From: a virus
Strand: one strand, 5' to 3'
Length of the DNA stretch: 64,000 bases
Virus record (IMG/VR): IMGVR_UViG_3300036770_004428
Coordinates: 30,982 to 94,981 of that record
Positions 34,309 through 63,209 of this stretch are shown here, one piece after another; the first letter of the stretch is position 1, and every line of letters starts with the position of its first letter. The position numbers and the translations under genes were made by a program. Below the pieces are notes generated by a model. That model was not told the DNA's origin and searched no databases. It was given only the letters and a program-made list of their open reading frames with translations.

Positions 34309-34998
34309 ATGACAGAATTTGATAAATACGCAGTTAAACACATGGGAATTGGTTCTAACACACTACATGACTACCAAAGTTTCCAATCGATTGCTCCTAT
34401 GATTACTAACTCCGTAACACCAACCATTATTGAAGAAAGACAAATGAATGTTGCATTAATGTCTGTATTTGATAGATTAATGATGGATAGAATTATTTGG
34501 TGTGCTGGTCCAGTGGATGATAGAATGGCTATTATTGTTCAAGCACAACTTTTATTCCTTTCACAACAAGACCCAAAGAAAACTATTACAATTCACGTTG
34601 ATTCACCTGGTGGTTCTGTTAAATCAGGATTGTCTATGGTTGATGTTATGAATTATATCCCAAATAACATCCAAACCATAAATACAGGTATGGCGGCATC
34701 TATGGGTTCAGTTTTATTGGGTGCTGGTACAAAGGGTATGAGATCTTCTTTATTACACTCAAGAACAATGTTACACCAATCTAGTGGTGGAGCTATGGGT
34801 AATATCCAAGACGCTAGAATCACTATGAATGAATGGGAAAAAATAAACAAAGAATTGTTTAAACTTTTGGGTGAGTATTGTGGTAAAAAACCTTCACAAG
34901 TAGAAAAAGACGCACAAAGAGATTTATGGTTAAGTGCTGATGAAGCTTTAGAATATGGTATTATTGATGAGGTAATAGGTAGACAAAATAAAAAATAA
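34309..34998 (+). CDS. clpP: ClpP-family serine protease
   Basis: A 229-aa protein with a complete ClpP catalytic triad: Ser131 in GMAASMGS, His156 in RTMLHQ and Asp205 in QRDLWLSADEA. The ITIHVDSPGGSV strand and oxyanion glycines are present, as is the closing EALEYGIIDEVI. About 45 extra N-terminal residues precede the core. It is a lone plus-strand gene inside the minus-strand internal-protein cluster and ends at a strong terminator. Possible roles are a phage ClpP that alters host proteolysis, or a maturation protease. Canonical ClpP features favour the first. No ClpX partner was seen in the window. Confidence 0.88.
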   Translation: MTEFDKYAVKHMGIGSNTLHDYQSFQSIAPMITNSVTPTIIEERQMNVALMSVFDRLMMDRIIWCAGPVDDRMAIIVQAQLLFLSQQDPKKTITIHVDSPGGSVKSGLSMVDVMNYIPNNIQTINTGMAASMGSVLLGAGTKGMRSSLLHSRTMLHQSSGGAMGNIQDARITMNEWEKINKELFKLLGEYCGKKPSQVEKDAQRDLWLSADEALEYGIIDEVIGRQNKK

Positions 34999-35024
34999 AA
35001 AAAGGGACTTTAAGTCCCTTTTTA
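34997..35024. terminator. Bidirectional intrinsic terminator between clpP and the HAD operon
   Basis: The stem AAAAAGGGACTT / AAGTCCCTTTTT, flanked by A- and T-runs, lies between the convergent clpP stop and the stop of the 183-aa gene, serving both. Confidence 0.8.
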
Positions 35025-35573
35025 AATTCTATTAATTTTTGTTTCAAACTCTACCCCATGTTCATCAAAATAAGTAATCCACCATCTTTCTACTGTTGCG
35101 TAATCACCACTATAAGAATCGTAAGATAAAATACCCATATCATATAGGTCATCTTTTAACATTTCATCTAAGGCATCTCTTTCTGTATTATATACAGTAT
35201 CCTCATCAAAACCATTTTTAGGGATTTTATTTAATTCATTTTTCATCCAATTGGTTACAATATAATCATTGCCACCATCTAAATATAAATCTATTAATTT
35301 CTCAAGACTAAAATAACCAGACGAATTAAAACCGTTTTGTAAAATTTTAACATACCTGATTAATTTATCAGTTCCATCAGAATCATTTTTAAAAGTATAC
35401 CAGTTATCAACCCAAGTTCCTCTATCTTCACCATGACCATTAGTCCAATGTAACCTAAAAACATTCTTTGGATTTTTTTGTGTGACTGGTTCCGTTATTT
35501 CAATAAAAGATGGGACATCACTTATCCAATCAAAATCAGATTCTTTTAATATTTTTTTAATTATATACTTCAT
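35022..35573 (-). CDS. Candidate packaged protein with capsid-targeting-like N-terminus (183 aa)
   Basis: Starts MKYIIKKILKESDFDW, nearly the same as the upstream neighbour's MKHLIKKILKEEMEDFDW, although the rest of the two proteins differs. The I-L-K-E ending matches the (L/I)-x-E cleavage rule of the T4 prohead protease. The body is acidic and Trp/Tyr/Asp-rich with no recognised family. It is last in a three-gene operon with an ATATTTAT box and ends at a terminator. Function after packaging is unknown. Confidence 0.7.
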   Translation of the reverse strand: MKYIIKKILKESDFDWISDVPSFIEITEPVTQKNPKNVFRLHWTNGHGEDRGTWVDNWYTFKNDSDGTDKLIRYVKILQNGFNSSGYFSLEKLIDLYLDGGNDYIVTNWMKNELNKIPKNGFDEDTVYNTERDALDEMLKDDLYDMGILSYDSYSGDYATVERWWITYFDEHGVEFETKINRI

Positions 35574-35575
35574 GA

Positions 35576-36064
35576 TTAATTATGTAGTGGTTTACCTTCT
35601 TTTTCTCTTTTATTTAACCATTGTTTAAAAATATCTAATGTTTCTAAAATTGTTAAATTATTATCTTCAGCAAATTGACCGAAATATTCGTAAGCCTGAT
35701 AAATTTCTGAGGCTGAAGATTGTAATATACTCTTACCTCCAAGAGATCTAAGTGGTGATAAATAAGAATAAACATCTTTCGCTAACAAAGCGTATTTTTG
35801 ACTACCATCTCTTGGGTTAACTAAGTCGTTAACCATTTCGGATAACTCTTGAATATCATCCATAAAAACGGCGTGTGACATAATAGATTCGTCACACCAA
35901 TTTAGCCACCAAGTGATATCACGTTTTATGTAATCACCAGGGGTAAAACCTCTTCTGTTTCTACCATAAAAATAATCTTCAAAAGATTGTAATGGATCAA
36001 TTTGATTTGTCCAATCAAAATCTTCCATCTCCTCCTTTAATATTTTTTTAATTAGATGTTTCAT
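35576..36064 (-). CDS. Candidate packaged protein with capsid-targeting-like N-terminus (162 aa)
   Basis: The N-terminus MKHLIKKILKEEMEDFDW mirrors that of the 183-aa neighbour and ends in L-K-E at residue 11. The body has a basic FYGRNRRGFTPGDYIKR stretch near residues 32-48 and helical segments; no family recognised. The start overlaps the HAD-like gene stop by 4 nt (ATGA), and the stop is 2 nt before the next gene, so translation is coupled. Late expression and packaging are inferred. Confidence 0.7.
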   Translation of the reverse strand: MKHLIKKILKEEMEDFDWTNQIDPLQSFEDYFYGRNRRGFTPGDYIKRDITWWLNWCDESIMSHAVFMDDIQELSEMVNDLVNPRDGSQKYALLAKDVYSYLSPLRSLGGKSILQSSASEIYQAYEYFGQFAEDNNLTILETLDIFKQWLNKREKEGKPLHN

Positions 36065-57471: not shown

Positions 57472-57681
57472 ATGGAAAAAAATAAAGAACAAGTCGAACA
57501 CCCAAAACACTATAATCAAGGTATTGAGATGTGGGATTACGCTTATTCACACGATTTAGATTTCTTTGAAGGTAATATTGTTAAGTACGTTACACGTTGG
57601 AGACATAAGAATGGTTTACAAGATTTATATAAAGCAAAACAATATTTAGATAAATTAATCGAACTGAAAGAAAATTCATGA
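57472..57681 (+). CDS. DUF3310 family small protein
   Basis: A 69-aa protein with the family hallmark VEHPKHYNQGIEMWDY, then FFEGNIVKYVTRWRHKNGLQ DLYKA and a closing helix. DUF3310 proteins are common in phages and are sometimes annotated as nucleotide kinases without biochemical support. It begins just after an A-rich leader, divergent from the 52-aa gene, and precedes the DHH-sigma gene by 22 nt. Confidence 0.85.
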   Translation: MEKNKEQVEHPKHYNQGIEMWDYAYSHDLDFFEGNIVKYVTRWRHKNGLQDLYKAKQYLDKLIELKENS

Positions 57682-57688
57682 TATTTAT
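57681..57688 (+). promoter_or_regulatory. ATATTTAT late-promoter-like box for the DHH-sigma gene
   Basis: The plus strand reads GATATTTATCTCAAAAGG, 15 nt before the ATG at 57704. It shows that the box keeps its orientation relative to transcription on both strands. Confidence 0.5.
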
Positions 57689-57703: not shown

Positions 57704-59659
57704 ATGAATATTATTATAAAAGAAGAATTGTTGAATGAGGGTGGTTTACGTAATATACGAGAACTAGCTAATAGATATAATAAAGCAAAAATATATTTCC
57801 ACCAAGATCTTGACGGTGTAACTACTGCTTTGGCTATGAAAAATTATTTGGAAAATAACGGGATTAAAGTAATTGATGCCGAAGTAATCCAATATGGTGA
57901 TAAAGAATTTTCAATTAAAAAACCCTCTGCAAGTGGTGATGTAATGCCAGTTCTAGTAGATTTTGCTCACGGAAAACCGATGTTTGTTATTCACACAGAC
58001 CATCACGATAAACAAGTTGGTGCAGAAAAAGGTGCTTCAACTTCATTTAGAGCATCTAGGTCAAACGTTGAGACCATTTCACAAATAGTTTCTTCTTCAG
58101 ATATTTTTCCTGATAATGATATTAAAATGATATCTACGGTAGATTCGGCTGATTTTGTTAAAATGGGAGTTACACCGGATGATATTATGACATATGTCTT
58201 CCAATTAGATAAAGAAAAAGAATTATCTAGAAATAAAATTATCATGGCTTTAGTAACTAATAAACTATTATTGGCTTACAAAAACAAACCTAAATTTTTG
58301 GAAAGATTAGTTATGAATTCATCTCCTTCTCTTCTAAACATTTATTTTAATATAATTAAATTAGCTAAAGAAGAAGGTTATGTTTCACCTGAGATAATGA
58401 AAAAAAATCTAGAGGACTATATAGAAGCACAAAAAAAGAGTGAAAATGTAGAGTATATAAAGGATTATGGTATTATATCACAATACGGTGGTGGGGCATT
58501 ATTTAAACCAGGTGCATATGATAGATATGTACCTTTTAAAAATTATCCTGACGCAAACTTTTTAGTCATAGCATGGCCTTTAGGTTTATTACAGGCATCA
58601 TGTAATCCATTTAAAGCTAGTAGAGAATTAAAAGGTGTTAACTTAGGTGAGATAGCACAAGAAGTTTTAGCTCAATATGAATCAGAACTTAAATCTAAAA
58701 AAATAACCATAGATACTATAAAATATTTTGCTGAAAAAAATAAAGAATTTGTTGAGGAGTCTGTCGGATTTACCTTCAACGACCTAGTTGCAATGTTTGA
58801 AGAAACTGATGGTGGCATAGAAGGTTTGAATACTGTACCGAGTGGTTCTTCTAGTGATTATACTGTTGACAGGTGGCATAACGCTTTAAGAAAAGTAATG
58901 GATAAACCTTATTCATTGTTAAATGATAGGGAAAAAAAGGCACTTAAACTTTTAAGTGTGACTGGTTGGGACATGATTCAGGCTAATAGTGGTGGACATA
59001 AATGTATCACTAATATATCAGGTTTAATGTACTTTGGTAAAGATGGTAAAGAATTTTTACTGAAATTTAAGGATAGTTTAATAAATAAGTTAAAGGAAAA
59101 AATAGACTCCGATAAAATATCTGAAAATATTTTTACTAAAAAACAAATATTAAAAGAAGTAAATGAGTTTCAAGACATCTATTCTAGTATGTGGGATAAA
59201 ATGTTAAGGTCAGTATGTATGAAATACACAAAAGATGTAAATCAGGCCGAAGACTTTTGTCAAAATGGTTTTATTAAGGTATACCAAAATTTAAACAAAT
59301 ATGATAACACAGGTTCTCTAGAGGGTTGGGTTAAAAGAGTTATTAACAATAGTATTTTAGATGAATTAAGAAAAAATAAAATTTCTTTTGTGAGTGGTGG
59401 TGATGAAGGTTTTGATTTTTCTAGATATAATGTAGGTGATGAGGAATATGAGGAAGGTATTTCTTTAGAAGATATTAAAAAAGTTTTACCACAATTACCA
59501 CAATCTTATAAAAAAGCAATAGAAATGTATTATATAGAAGGTTTAAAACATGACGAAATAGCCAAAAAATTAGGTATATCACCAAGTACATCTAAAACAA
59601 ACCTAATGAAGGCAAAGGCTAGAATGAAGGATTTATTATCAAATACATACAATCAGTAA
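57704..59659 (+). CDS. DHH/DHHA1 phosphoesterase fused to an ECF-like sigma factor
   Basis: A 651-aa fusion. The leader MNIIIKEELLNEG ends in L-N-E. A DHH phosphoesterase domain follows with all four metal motifs: HQDLDG (33-38), VLVDF (Asp86), HTDHH (97-101) and STVDSAD (Asp147, Asp150). A DHHA1-type GGHKCITN occurs near 425-440. From about 493 the protein becomes a sigma-70-family factor: region 2 (QAEDFCQNGFIKVYQNL, then SLEGWVKRVINNSILDELR) and region 4 (LPQSYKKAIEMYYIEGLK, then HDEIAKKLGISPSTSKTNL, a helix-turn-helix). DHH enzymes cut small oligonucleotides or cyclic dinucleotides; ECF sigmas direct RNA polymerase. A late-type box and packaging-type leader suggest late synthesis and virion delivery, which is inference. 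Internal Met503 or nearby Met codons could also yield a free sigma. Confidence 0.85.
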   Translation: MNIIIKEELLNEGGLRNIRELANRYNKAKIYFHQDLDGVTTALAMKNYLENNGIKVIDAEVIQYGDKEFSIKKPSASGDVMPVLVDFAHGKPMFVIHTDHHDKQVGAEKGASTSFRASRSNVETISQIVSSSDIFPDNDIKMISTVDSADFVKMGVTPDDIMTYVFQLDKEKELSRNKIIMALVTNKLLLAYKNKPKFLERLVMNSSPSLLNIYFNIIKLAKEEGYVSPEIMKKNLEDYIEAQKKSENVEYIKDYGIISQYGGGALFKPGAYDRYVPFKNYPDANFLVIAWPLGLLQASCNPFKASRELKGVNLGEIAQEVLAQYESELKSKKITIDTIKYFAEKNKEFVEESVGFTFNDLVAMFEETDGGIEGLNTVPSGSSSDYTVDRWHNALRKVMDKPYSLLNDREKKALKLLSVTGWDMIQANSGGHKCITNISGLMYFGKDGKEFLLKFKDSLINKLKEKIDSDKISENIFTKKQILKEVNEFQDIYSSMWDKMLRSVCMKYTKDVNQAEDFCQNGFIKVYQNLNKYDNTGSLEGWVKRVINNSILDELRKNKISFVSGGDEGFDFSRYNVGDEEYEEGISLEDIKKVLPQLPQSYKKAIEMYYIEGLKHDEIAKKLGISPSTSKTNLMKAKARMKDLLSNTYNQ

Positions 59660-59663
59660 AAAC

Positions 59664-59698
59664 AAAAAACACATTACCCATTTACGATGTGTTTTTTT
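59664..59698 (+). terminator. Intrinsic terminator after the DHH-sigma gene
   Basis: An 11-bp stem AAAAAACACAT / ATGTGTTTTTT with a 12-nt loop runs into T residues on the plus strand, separating this gene from the DNA polymerase. Confidence 0.75.
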
Positions 59699-62699: not shown

Positions 62700-63209
62700 A
62701 TGAATATCATTTTATTAAATGAATTAGTTAATTCAGATGGTAGTAGAATAAAGGGTGATTCTAAAGTAGATCAGTCTAATAATATGACAACATCTAAATT
62801 AACTACTGACGATAAAGTACTTATGCAAAGACCTGGTATTAGTAGATACAGTAACTATGGTCGTGTGTATGTAGGTGAAGAAGATGATGAAGTAACAAAA
62901 TTACCGCCCAAAAAAAAATCTAAGAAAAAAGCTAAACTAAAAGAGGATGTTTTTACTAAAAAAGATTTTGATAAAGAATTTGTACAAAAAAAAATAGAAA
63001 ATCTATCACAAAACAATATCCAAAATCTAGACTCAATTAGAGACACAAACCCAATCCTAATAAGAAAAGTTGGTGCATTAAAAGATATTATAGAAAAAAA
63101 TAGTGCTAGTGGTGAAGAAAAGGCGGTGATATTAAATTATCTTTTAGATATGGATTTATCTGATATACCACAAAATTATAAAGAAATATTAAAAAGAAAA
63201 TTAGGATAA
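62700..63209 (+). CDS. Candidate packaged/virion protein with short capsid-targeting-like start
   Basis: A 169-aa charged protein starting MNIILLNELVNSDGSR; the L-N-E at residues 6-8 would be a prohead-protease-type site. A Lys-rich KKKSKKKAKLKEDVFTKKDF stretch lies near residues 71-90, and its FTKK-x motif is also found in the DHH-sigma protein. The C-terminal half is helical. No family recognised. It begins a late-type operon; its stop overlaps the next ATG (TAATGG). Confidence 0.6.
   Translation: MNIILLNELVNSDGSRIKGDSKVDQSNNMTTSKLTTDDKVLMQRPGISRYSNYGRVYVGEEDDEVTKLPPKKKSKKKAKLKEDVFTKKDFDKEFVQKKIENLSQNNIQNLDSIRDTNPILIRKVGALKDIIEKNSASGEEKAVILNYLLDMDLSDIPQNYKEILKRKLG

Follow-up and report, generated by a model that had tools for sequence, protein, structure and literature searches.

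The internal proteins IPI-III and Alt of bacteriophage T4 bear a capsid-targeting sequence, are cleaved by gp21 and are injected into the host, and some phages are known to inject an entire RNA polymerase, N4 being one with a virion RNA polymerase. To our knowledge, no virion-delivered sigma factor has been described so far, and a search of the open-access literature returned no precedent for a packaged sigma factor and none for the leader of the protein considered here. The T4 prohead protease gp21 cleaves after L/I-X-E, and a 10-residue N-terminal capsid-targeting leader suffices for entry into the head, with leader fusions reaching the host (PMC9026906). Virion RNA polymerases of the phiKZ type are found, for example, in SPN3US (PMC10052503), and DHH phosphodiesterases of jumbo phages have been proposed to counter nucleotide alarm signals (PMC7824862).

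The locus described here, a gene that joins a DHH-DHHA1 domain to an extracytoplasmic function (ECF) sigma factor, resembles each of these systems in some respects. Like T4 IPI-III and Alt, the protein has at its N-terminus a short leader that ends in L/I-X-E; the same phage group encodes an S77 protease and a capsid protein of the gp23 type, and the box upstream of the gene points to late expression. It differs from them in its cargo, which combines a DHH enzyme and an ECF sigma factor in a single chain and has a further, internal site, and its packaging and cleavage are predicted. Its purpose would be that of the N4 and phiKZ-type virion RNA polymerases, namely phage transcription at once after injection, but the fusion would deliver a sigma factor only, using the host core polymerase, and no phage polymerase subunit. 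The DHH motifs and the DHHA1 GGH are held in common with DhhP, NrnA, TM1595 and RecJ, which are also fold matches at low TM-scores, whereas the DHH family of the fusion is divergent, with a sub-threshold Pfam match, no PHROG match, a leader and a swappable C-terminal cargo. As with the jumbo-phage phosphodiesterases, a DHH enzyme is encoded by large phages; the available passages on those enzymes mention neither a packaging leader nor a fusion to a sigma or a hydrolase (PMC7824862). Regions 2 and 4 are complete, as in the cellular ECF sigma factors SigW, SigE and SigH, but the phage sigma is either joined to a DHH carrier or preceded by a phage leader, and no anti-sigma gene was identified next to the fusion. 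The known kind would be that of the T4-type head-delivered internal proteins, and the new element a sigma factor as cargo.

The fusion gene and its two parts

The window analysed is a stretch of 64,000 nucleotides, bases 30982-94981 of a 94,981-base IMG/VR virus record that is itself a fragment, and the features of the locus are given in Table 1.

Table 1. Features of the fusion locus, in window positions
Feature	Position	Strand	Basis
Late-type promoter box ATATTTAT	57681..57688	+	Ends 15 nt before the start codon; most enriched upstream 8-mer
DHH-DHHA1 / ECF sigma fusion gene	57704..59659	+	Single uninterrupted ATG frame, 651 aa; domain matches, recurrence in relatives
Leader MNIIIKEELLNE at the N-terminus (residues 1-12), with a cut predicted after E12	57704..57739	+	Leader Glu conserved in relatives
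DHH-DHHA1 phosphoesterase part, about residues 13-470	57740..59113	+	Invariant motif residues; fold matches DhhP, TM1595, NrnA, RecJ
DHH triplet D99-H100-H101 (motif III)	57998..58006	+	Invariant, 33 homologues
DHHA1 GGH triplet, residues 430-432	58991..58999	+	Invariant, 33 homologues
Linker FTKKQILKE, residues 477-485; predicted second cut after E485	59132..59158	+	Aligns with leader end of unfused sigmas; cleavage inferred
Sigma-70 region 2, residues 499-559	59198..59380	+	PF04542, E 8.7e-15
Sigma-70 region 4, residues 589-641	59468..59626	+	PF08281, E 2.9e-15
Possible terminator: A+T-rich inverted repeat, then T run	59664..59697	+	Visible in sequence; suggestion only

The initial annotation of this DNA had described one 651-aa frame with four intact DHH motifs, a DHHA1-type GGH segment and sigma regions 2 and 4, and all of these elements were borne out. 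The frame runs without interruption, and IMG/VR scans for the same fusion in other phages recovered it in 19 contigs that encode 16 distinct proteins. This recurrence of the fused frame contradicts a break by sequencing error and rules out an assembly artefact, so that the artificial joining of two neighbouring genes has a negligible probability, even though DHH and sigma do occur as adjacent unfused genes in L038 and L023. The inverted repeat downstream of the gene is not among the terminators listed by a terminator scan.

Judging by its motifs, the N-terminal part, a divergent member of the DHH-DHHA1 proteins, is a predicted phosphoesterase. DHH motifs I-IV and the DHHA1 GGH are all intact, and HQDLDG (H33, D35, D37), D86, D99-H100-H101, D147 and G430-G431-H432 show no variation in 33 homologues with identities as low as 24%, all of which retain the metal ligands. 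The Pfam DHH match is weak (18.5 bits against a cut-off of 28.1, E 0.0025) and lies below the curated threshold, and a PHROG search with this part gave no match. As a PDB sequence search with the DHH part gave no match either, a fold search was used. A first AlphaFold model was poor (pLDDT 68) and a second one, built with a deeper alignment, reached pLDDT 81; with these two models Foldseek retrieved DhhP, the TM1595 phosphodiesterase, NrnA and RecJ-type proteins, all at low TM-scores. The poorer model matched DhhP with E 1.8e-4 and probability 0.98, and the better one matched RecJ with probability 1.00 and E 1.4e-3, the TM-score being low in both cases. Two proteins of an uncultured marine phage in BFVD, A0A8D9FS97 and A0A8D9C9Z7, are also among the structure matches; one of the two, of 684 aa, aligns to the whole-chain model across 628 columns at 35% identity and is possibly a further DHH fusion.

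The C-terminal part is a predicted complete ECF sigma factor. Both sigma regions exceed the curated Pfam cut-offs, regions 1.1 and 3 are absent, and the NCBIfam ECF model TIGR02937 matches with 100.8 bits against a cut-off of 42.9. A profile built from 12 sequences of the sigma part matches SigW, SigE, SigH and other ECF sigmas of the PDB across regions 2 and 4, and the sigma assignment made in the initial annotation is in this way confirmed by Pfam, NCBIfam and PDB profile matches, the two regions lying above their cut-offs. The other of the two BFVD proteins, SigW-like and of 295 aa, bears an extension.

A predicted polyprotein for delivery with the phage DNA

We consider it rather probable that the fusion is a late, head-packaged and cleavable polyprotein, whose injected sigma would redirect the host polymerase and whose DHH enzyme would destroy a nucleotide substrate; its packaging, cleavage and injection, as well as the promoter target and the substrate, are what we infer from the comparisons described below. 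The phage would be a T4-like huge phage, probably with a host among the Bacteroidota. The fusion would be made late and its N-terminal leader would carry the polyprotein into the prohead, where the S77 prohead protease would cut at two places, behind LLNE (residue 12) and behind ILKE (residue 485), so that the mature head would contain the DHH-DHHA1 phosphoesterase and the ECF sigma as free, separate proteins. Both proteins would enter the next host along with the DNA, the sigma steering the host RNA polymerase to phage promoters ahead of phage protein synthesis and the DHH enzyme degrading a nucleotide substrate, which might be a short RNA or a cyclic-nucleotide alarm. The fusion would then serve packaging above all, the DHH protein being able to carry different cargo, and a cell-wall hydrolase as cargo would also be compatible with entry.

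If true, this would be the first case known to us of a sigma factor delivered in the virion, and a takeover of transcription that brings the specificity subunit alone: some phages would inject sigma by itself and capture the host enzyme at once, by means of a cleavable polyprotein on a nucleotide-degrading carrier. It would also be a natural example of cargo swapping in head delivery. The fusion yields exact predicted cleavage sites, and the leader signature, seen in 31 of the 225 proteins of one 210-kb contig, could flag candidate injected proteins in uncultured huge phages.

Leaders, linker and head genes

The packaging-type leader noticed earlier is present: the DHH protein begins with MNIIIKEELLNE, which ends in LLNE and is followed by GG, and the leader Glu is kept in 63 of 66 representatives, with an exact [LI]xE in 54 of them. 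Most megaphage-type DHH forms have the NE one residue earlier in the leader. AlphaFold gives residues 1-15 a pLDDT below 50. The conserved Glu could be structural, because the adjoining GxRNI is also conserved. Three related fusions (L020, L129, L131), which start at MGGIRN and carry no N-terminal leader, cast doubt on head delivery; they retain an internal KKSLLKE.

All 16 distinct fusions have an [LI]xE motif between their DHH and sigma domains, and in the alignment the linker Glu is invariant among fused linkers and the leaders of free sigmas. Each of the four unfused sigmas, and a fifth on another carrier in L136, has an N-terminal leader that includes [LI]xE: the free-sigma leader reads MRNIIKKILREE...LLVE before G in L023, MKRSLIRQILREEFLME before T in L038, MEKLIKKILKEELLKE before N in L117 and, provided that the start is TTG, EKSIKKILKE in L137. 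Of 19 cargo junctions, 17 have the motif within 32 residues, as do 19% of background windows, these rows being related and the counts not independent. Doubt about the protease sites comes from the shortness of [LI]xE and from the AlphaFold model, in which the linker lies inside a long helix that is continuous between the domains.

Leaders of this pattern are common in related genomes. They occur in 31 of 225 proteins of a 210-kb relative (G001), for which internal windows give 1.7 and shuffles 3.8, and in 15 of 139 proteins of a 130-kb relative (G005), against about 2 in internal windows, while none of the 89 proteins of a crAss-like control fits the pattern and the sigma of that control has no leader. 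A DFDW-like motif (KESDFDW, EEMEDFDW) follows soon after the leader in the genes at window 35022-35573 and 35576-36064 and in many G001 genes in L138-L142; the small leader proteins with this motif are a possible family of packaged proteins.

An S77 prohead protease and a gp23-type capsid protein are encoded in relatives, including the fusion-bearing contigs G007 and G008, and genes with leaders are located between the protease and capsid genes. The capsid proteins have, near the N-terminus, LINE followed by T or A, or (I/M)NE followed by N, a position corresponding to that at which T4 gp23 loses its propeptide. The T4 L/I-X-E rule, the protease and capsid protein of relatives and the leader genes between them are the reasons for predicting a head location for the fusion. 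The contig of the fusion, a fragment, has no gp21 and no gp23 match and only a small excess of leaders (4 of 69 proteins), and this weighs against head delivery. The PHROGs label of the protein at window 34309-34998 is "head maturation protease", yet Pfam assigns it to ClpP (PF00574, E 1.9e-58), for which reason it was left out of the prohead protease count. In phage records of 735, 642 and 634 kb (L091, L092 and L093), an S77-like protein upstream of the capsid gene extends into about ten tandem repeats of 14 residues, of the type YSEY(I/L)AENLDKNI, with an [LI]xE site in each, and by its sequence this protein looks like a protease joined to a scaffold rich in cut sites.

The leader could instead target the membrane, the tail or an infection compartment, its [LI]xE motifs not being protease sites. 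The leader core is short and amphipathic, and some cargoes are cell-wall hydrolases, which could serve lysis or the tail; nevertheless, the LINE before T in the capsid proteins of the same phages, the position of leader genes between protease and capsid genes and the S77 protease of relatives make this reading a quite improbable one.

Spread of the family and interchangeable cargo

Relatives of the DHH part are encoded in at least 561 stretches in an IMG/VR scan, and a search of bacterial genomes with the DHH alignment gave no relative. Most DHH relatives are without sigma; two phage records of 634,780 and 642,428 bases, for example, have a DHH relative and no sigma, and in others the place of sigma is taken by Peptidase_M23, PG_binding_1, Glyco_hydro_19 or a TseH-like domain, or by nothing. 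The C-terminal TseH-like domain, a cargo of the cell-wall type, is seen in the DHH relatives of L167, L186 and L210, with PF25218 matched in L167 and L210. On a tree of 66 representatives the cargo label changes 13 times, 6 times for sigma and 5 times for hydrolases; several forks of the tree are weak, and the well-supported branches alone still force at least 4 sigma changes. Unfused copies of the sigma occur in L023, L038, L117 and L137, and in L136 (3506-4519) the same ECF sigma is fused to a different, leader-bearing carrier with hydrophobic stretches, for which neither Pfam nor the phage records gave a match.

These observations bear on the suggestion of the initial annotation that a nucleotide signal or RNA cleavage is linked to promoter choice. 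A regulatory fusion of this sort would work as one protein, its DHH domain detecting or cutting a nucleotide or a short RNA and the joined sigma shifting promoter choice in response. It would agree with its maintenance in 16 distinct proteins and with the continuous helix that links the domains in the model. However, unrelated hydrolases replace the sigma, the sigma also exists unfused or attached to a different carrier, and a leader-like [LI]xE motif lies in the linker, so that DHH and sigma may act separately and a regulatory role of this kind is unlikely. A cut linker would make the fusion mainly a packaging device, and direct steering of promoter choice by nucleotide cleavage would be less likely for that reason. 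The polyprotein reading also has a wider form, to which we give an even chance: in a large T4-like huge-phage lineage, the DHH enzyme would be a head-packaged carrier with an interchangeable, protease-released cargo, either a sigma or a cell-wall hydrolase.

The late-type box and the target of the sigma

The box upstream of the fusion gene, proposed earlier as a late-type promoter element, proved to be real: ATATTTAT is the top enriched 8-mer upstream of genes in its own contig, where it precedes 15 genes against 0.93 expected, and for the majority of fused DHH genes and their close kin it is placed at -23 to -26. Relatives have it ahead of the genes for the prohead protease, a portal-like protein, sheath and tube, and it stands before half of the leader genes (28 of 56), compared with 75 of the 377 remaining genes (Fisher p 5e-6), the contig of the fusion taken alone not being significant. 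A late-type box common to head and tail genes lends indirect support to the earlier proposal that the protein may be made late, and the delivery proposed in the initial annotation, with action in the next infection, likewise gains indirect support.

The alternative given in the initial annotation was that the fusion is the phage's own late sigma. As such, it would act on the ATATTTAT box in the producing cell while the leader serves another role. It has in its favour a full ECF sigma in a phage with a strong late-type box and the failure to find a second sigma in the 95-kb contig. It is weakened by the position of the fusion gene itself behind the box, and by G005, which has ATATTTAT upstream of 46 genes and no ECF sigma in 130 kb, this contig being incomplete. 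G007 and other relatives have, moreover, a separate sigma-like candidate, resting on a weak region-2 match and giving no PDB match. Taken together, this makes a late sigma of the phage's own improbable.

A Bacteroidota-type promoter, TTG-N17-21-TAnnTTTG, was considered as the target of the fusion sigma and stands before 4 of the 52 non-late genes, with a reverse-strand count of 1, which is too few sites for an assignment. TTG-N-TATATTTG sites, which resemble the Bacteroidota housekeeping promoter, lie upstream of window 30199 and 37029, both genes being without the late box. At window 62700-63209, a leader-like protein (MNIILLNELVNSDGSRIKG) is encoded with the ATATTTAT box 14 nt upstream, and it has relatives in G001, G005 and G007.
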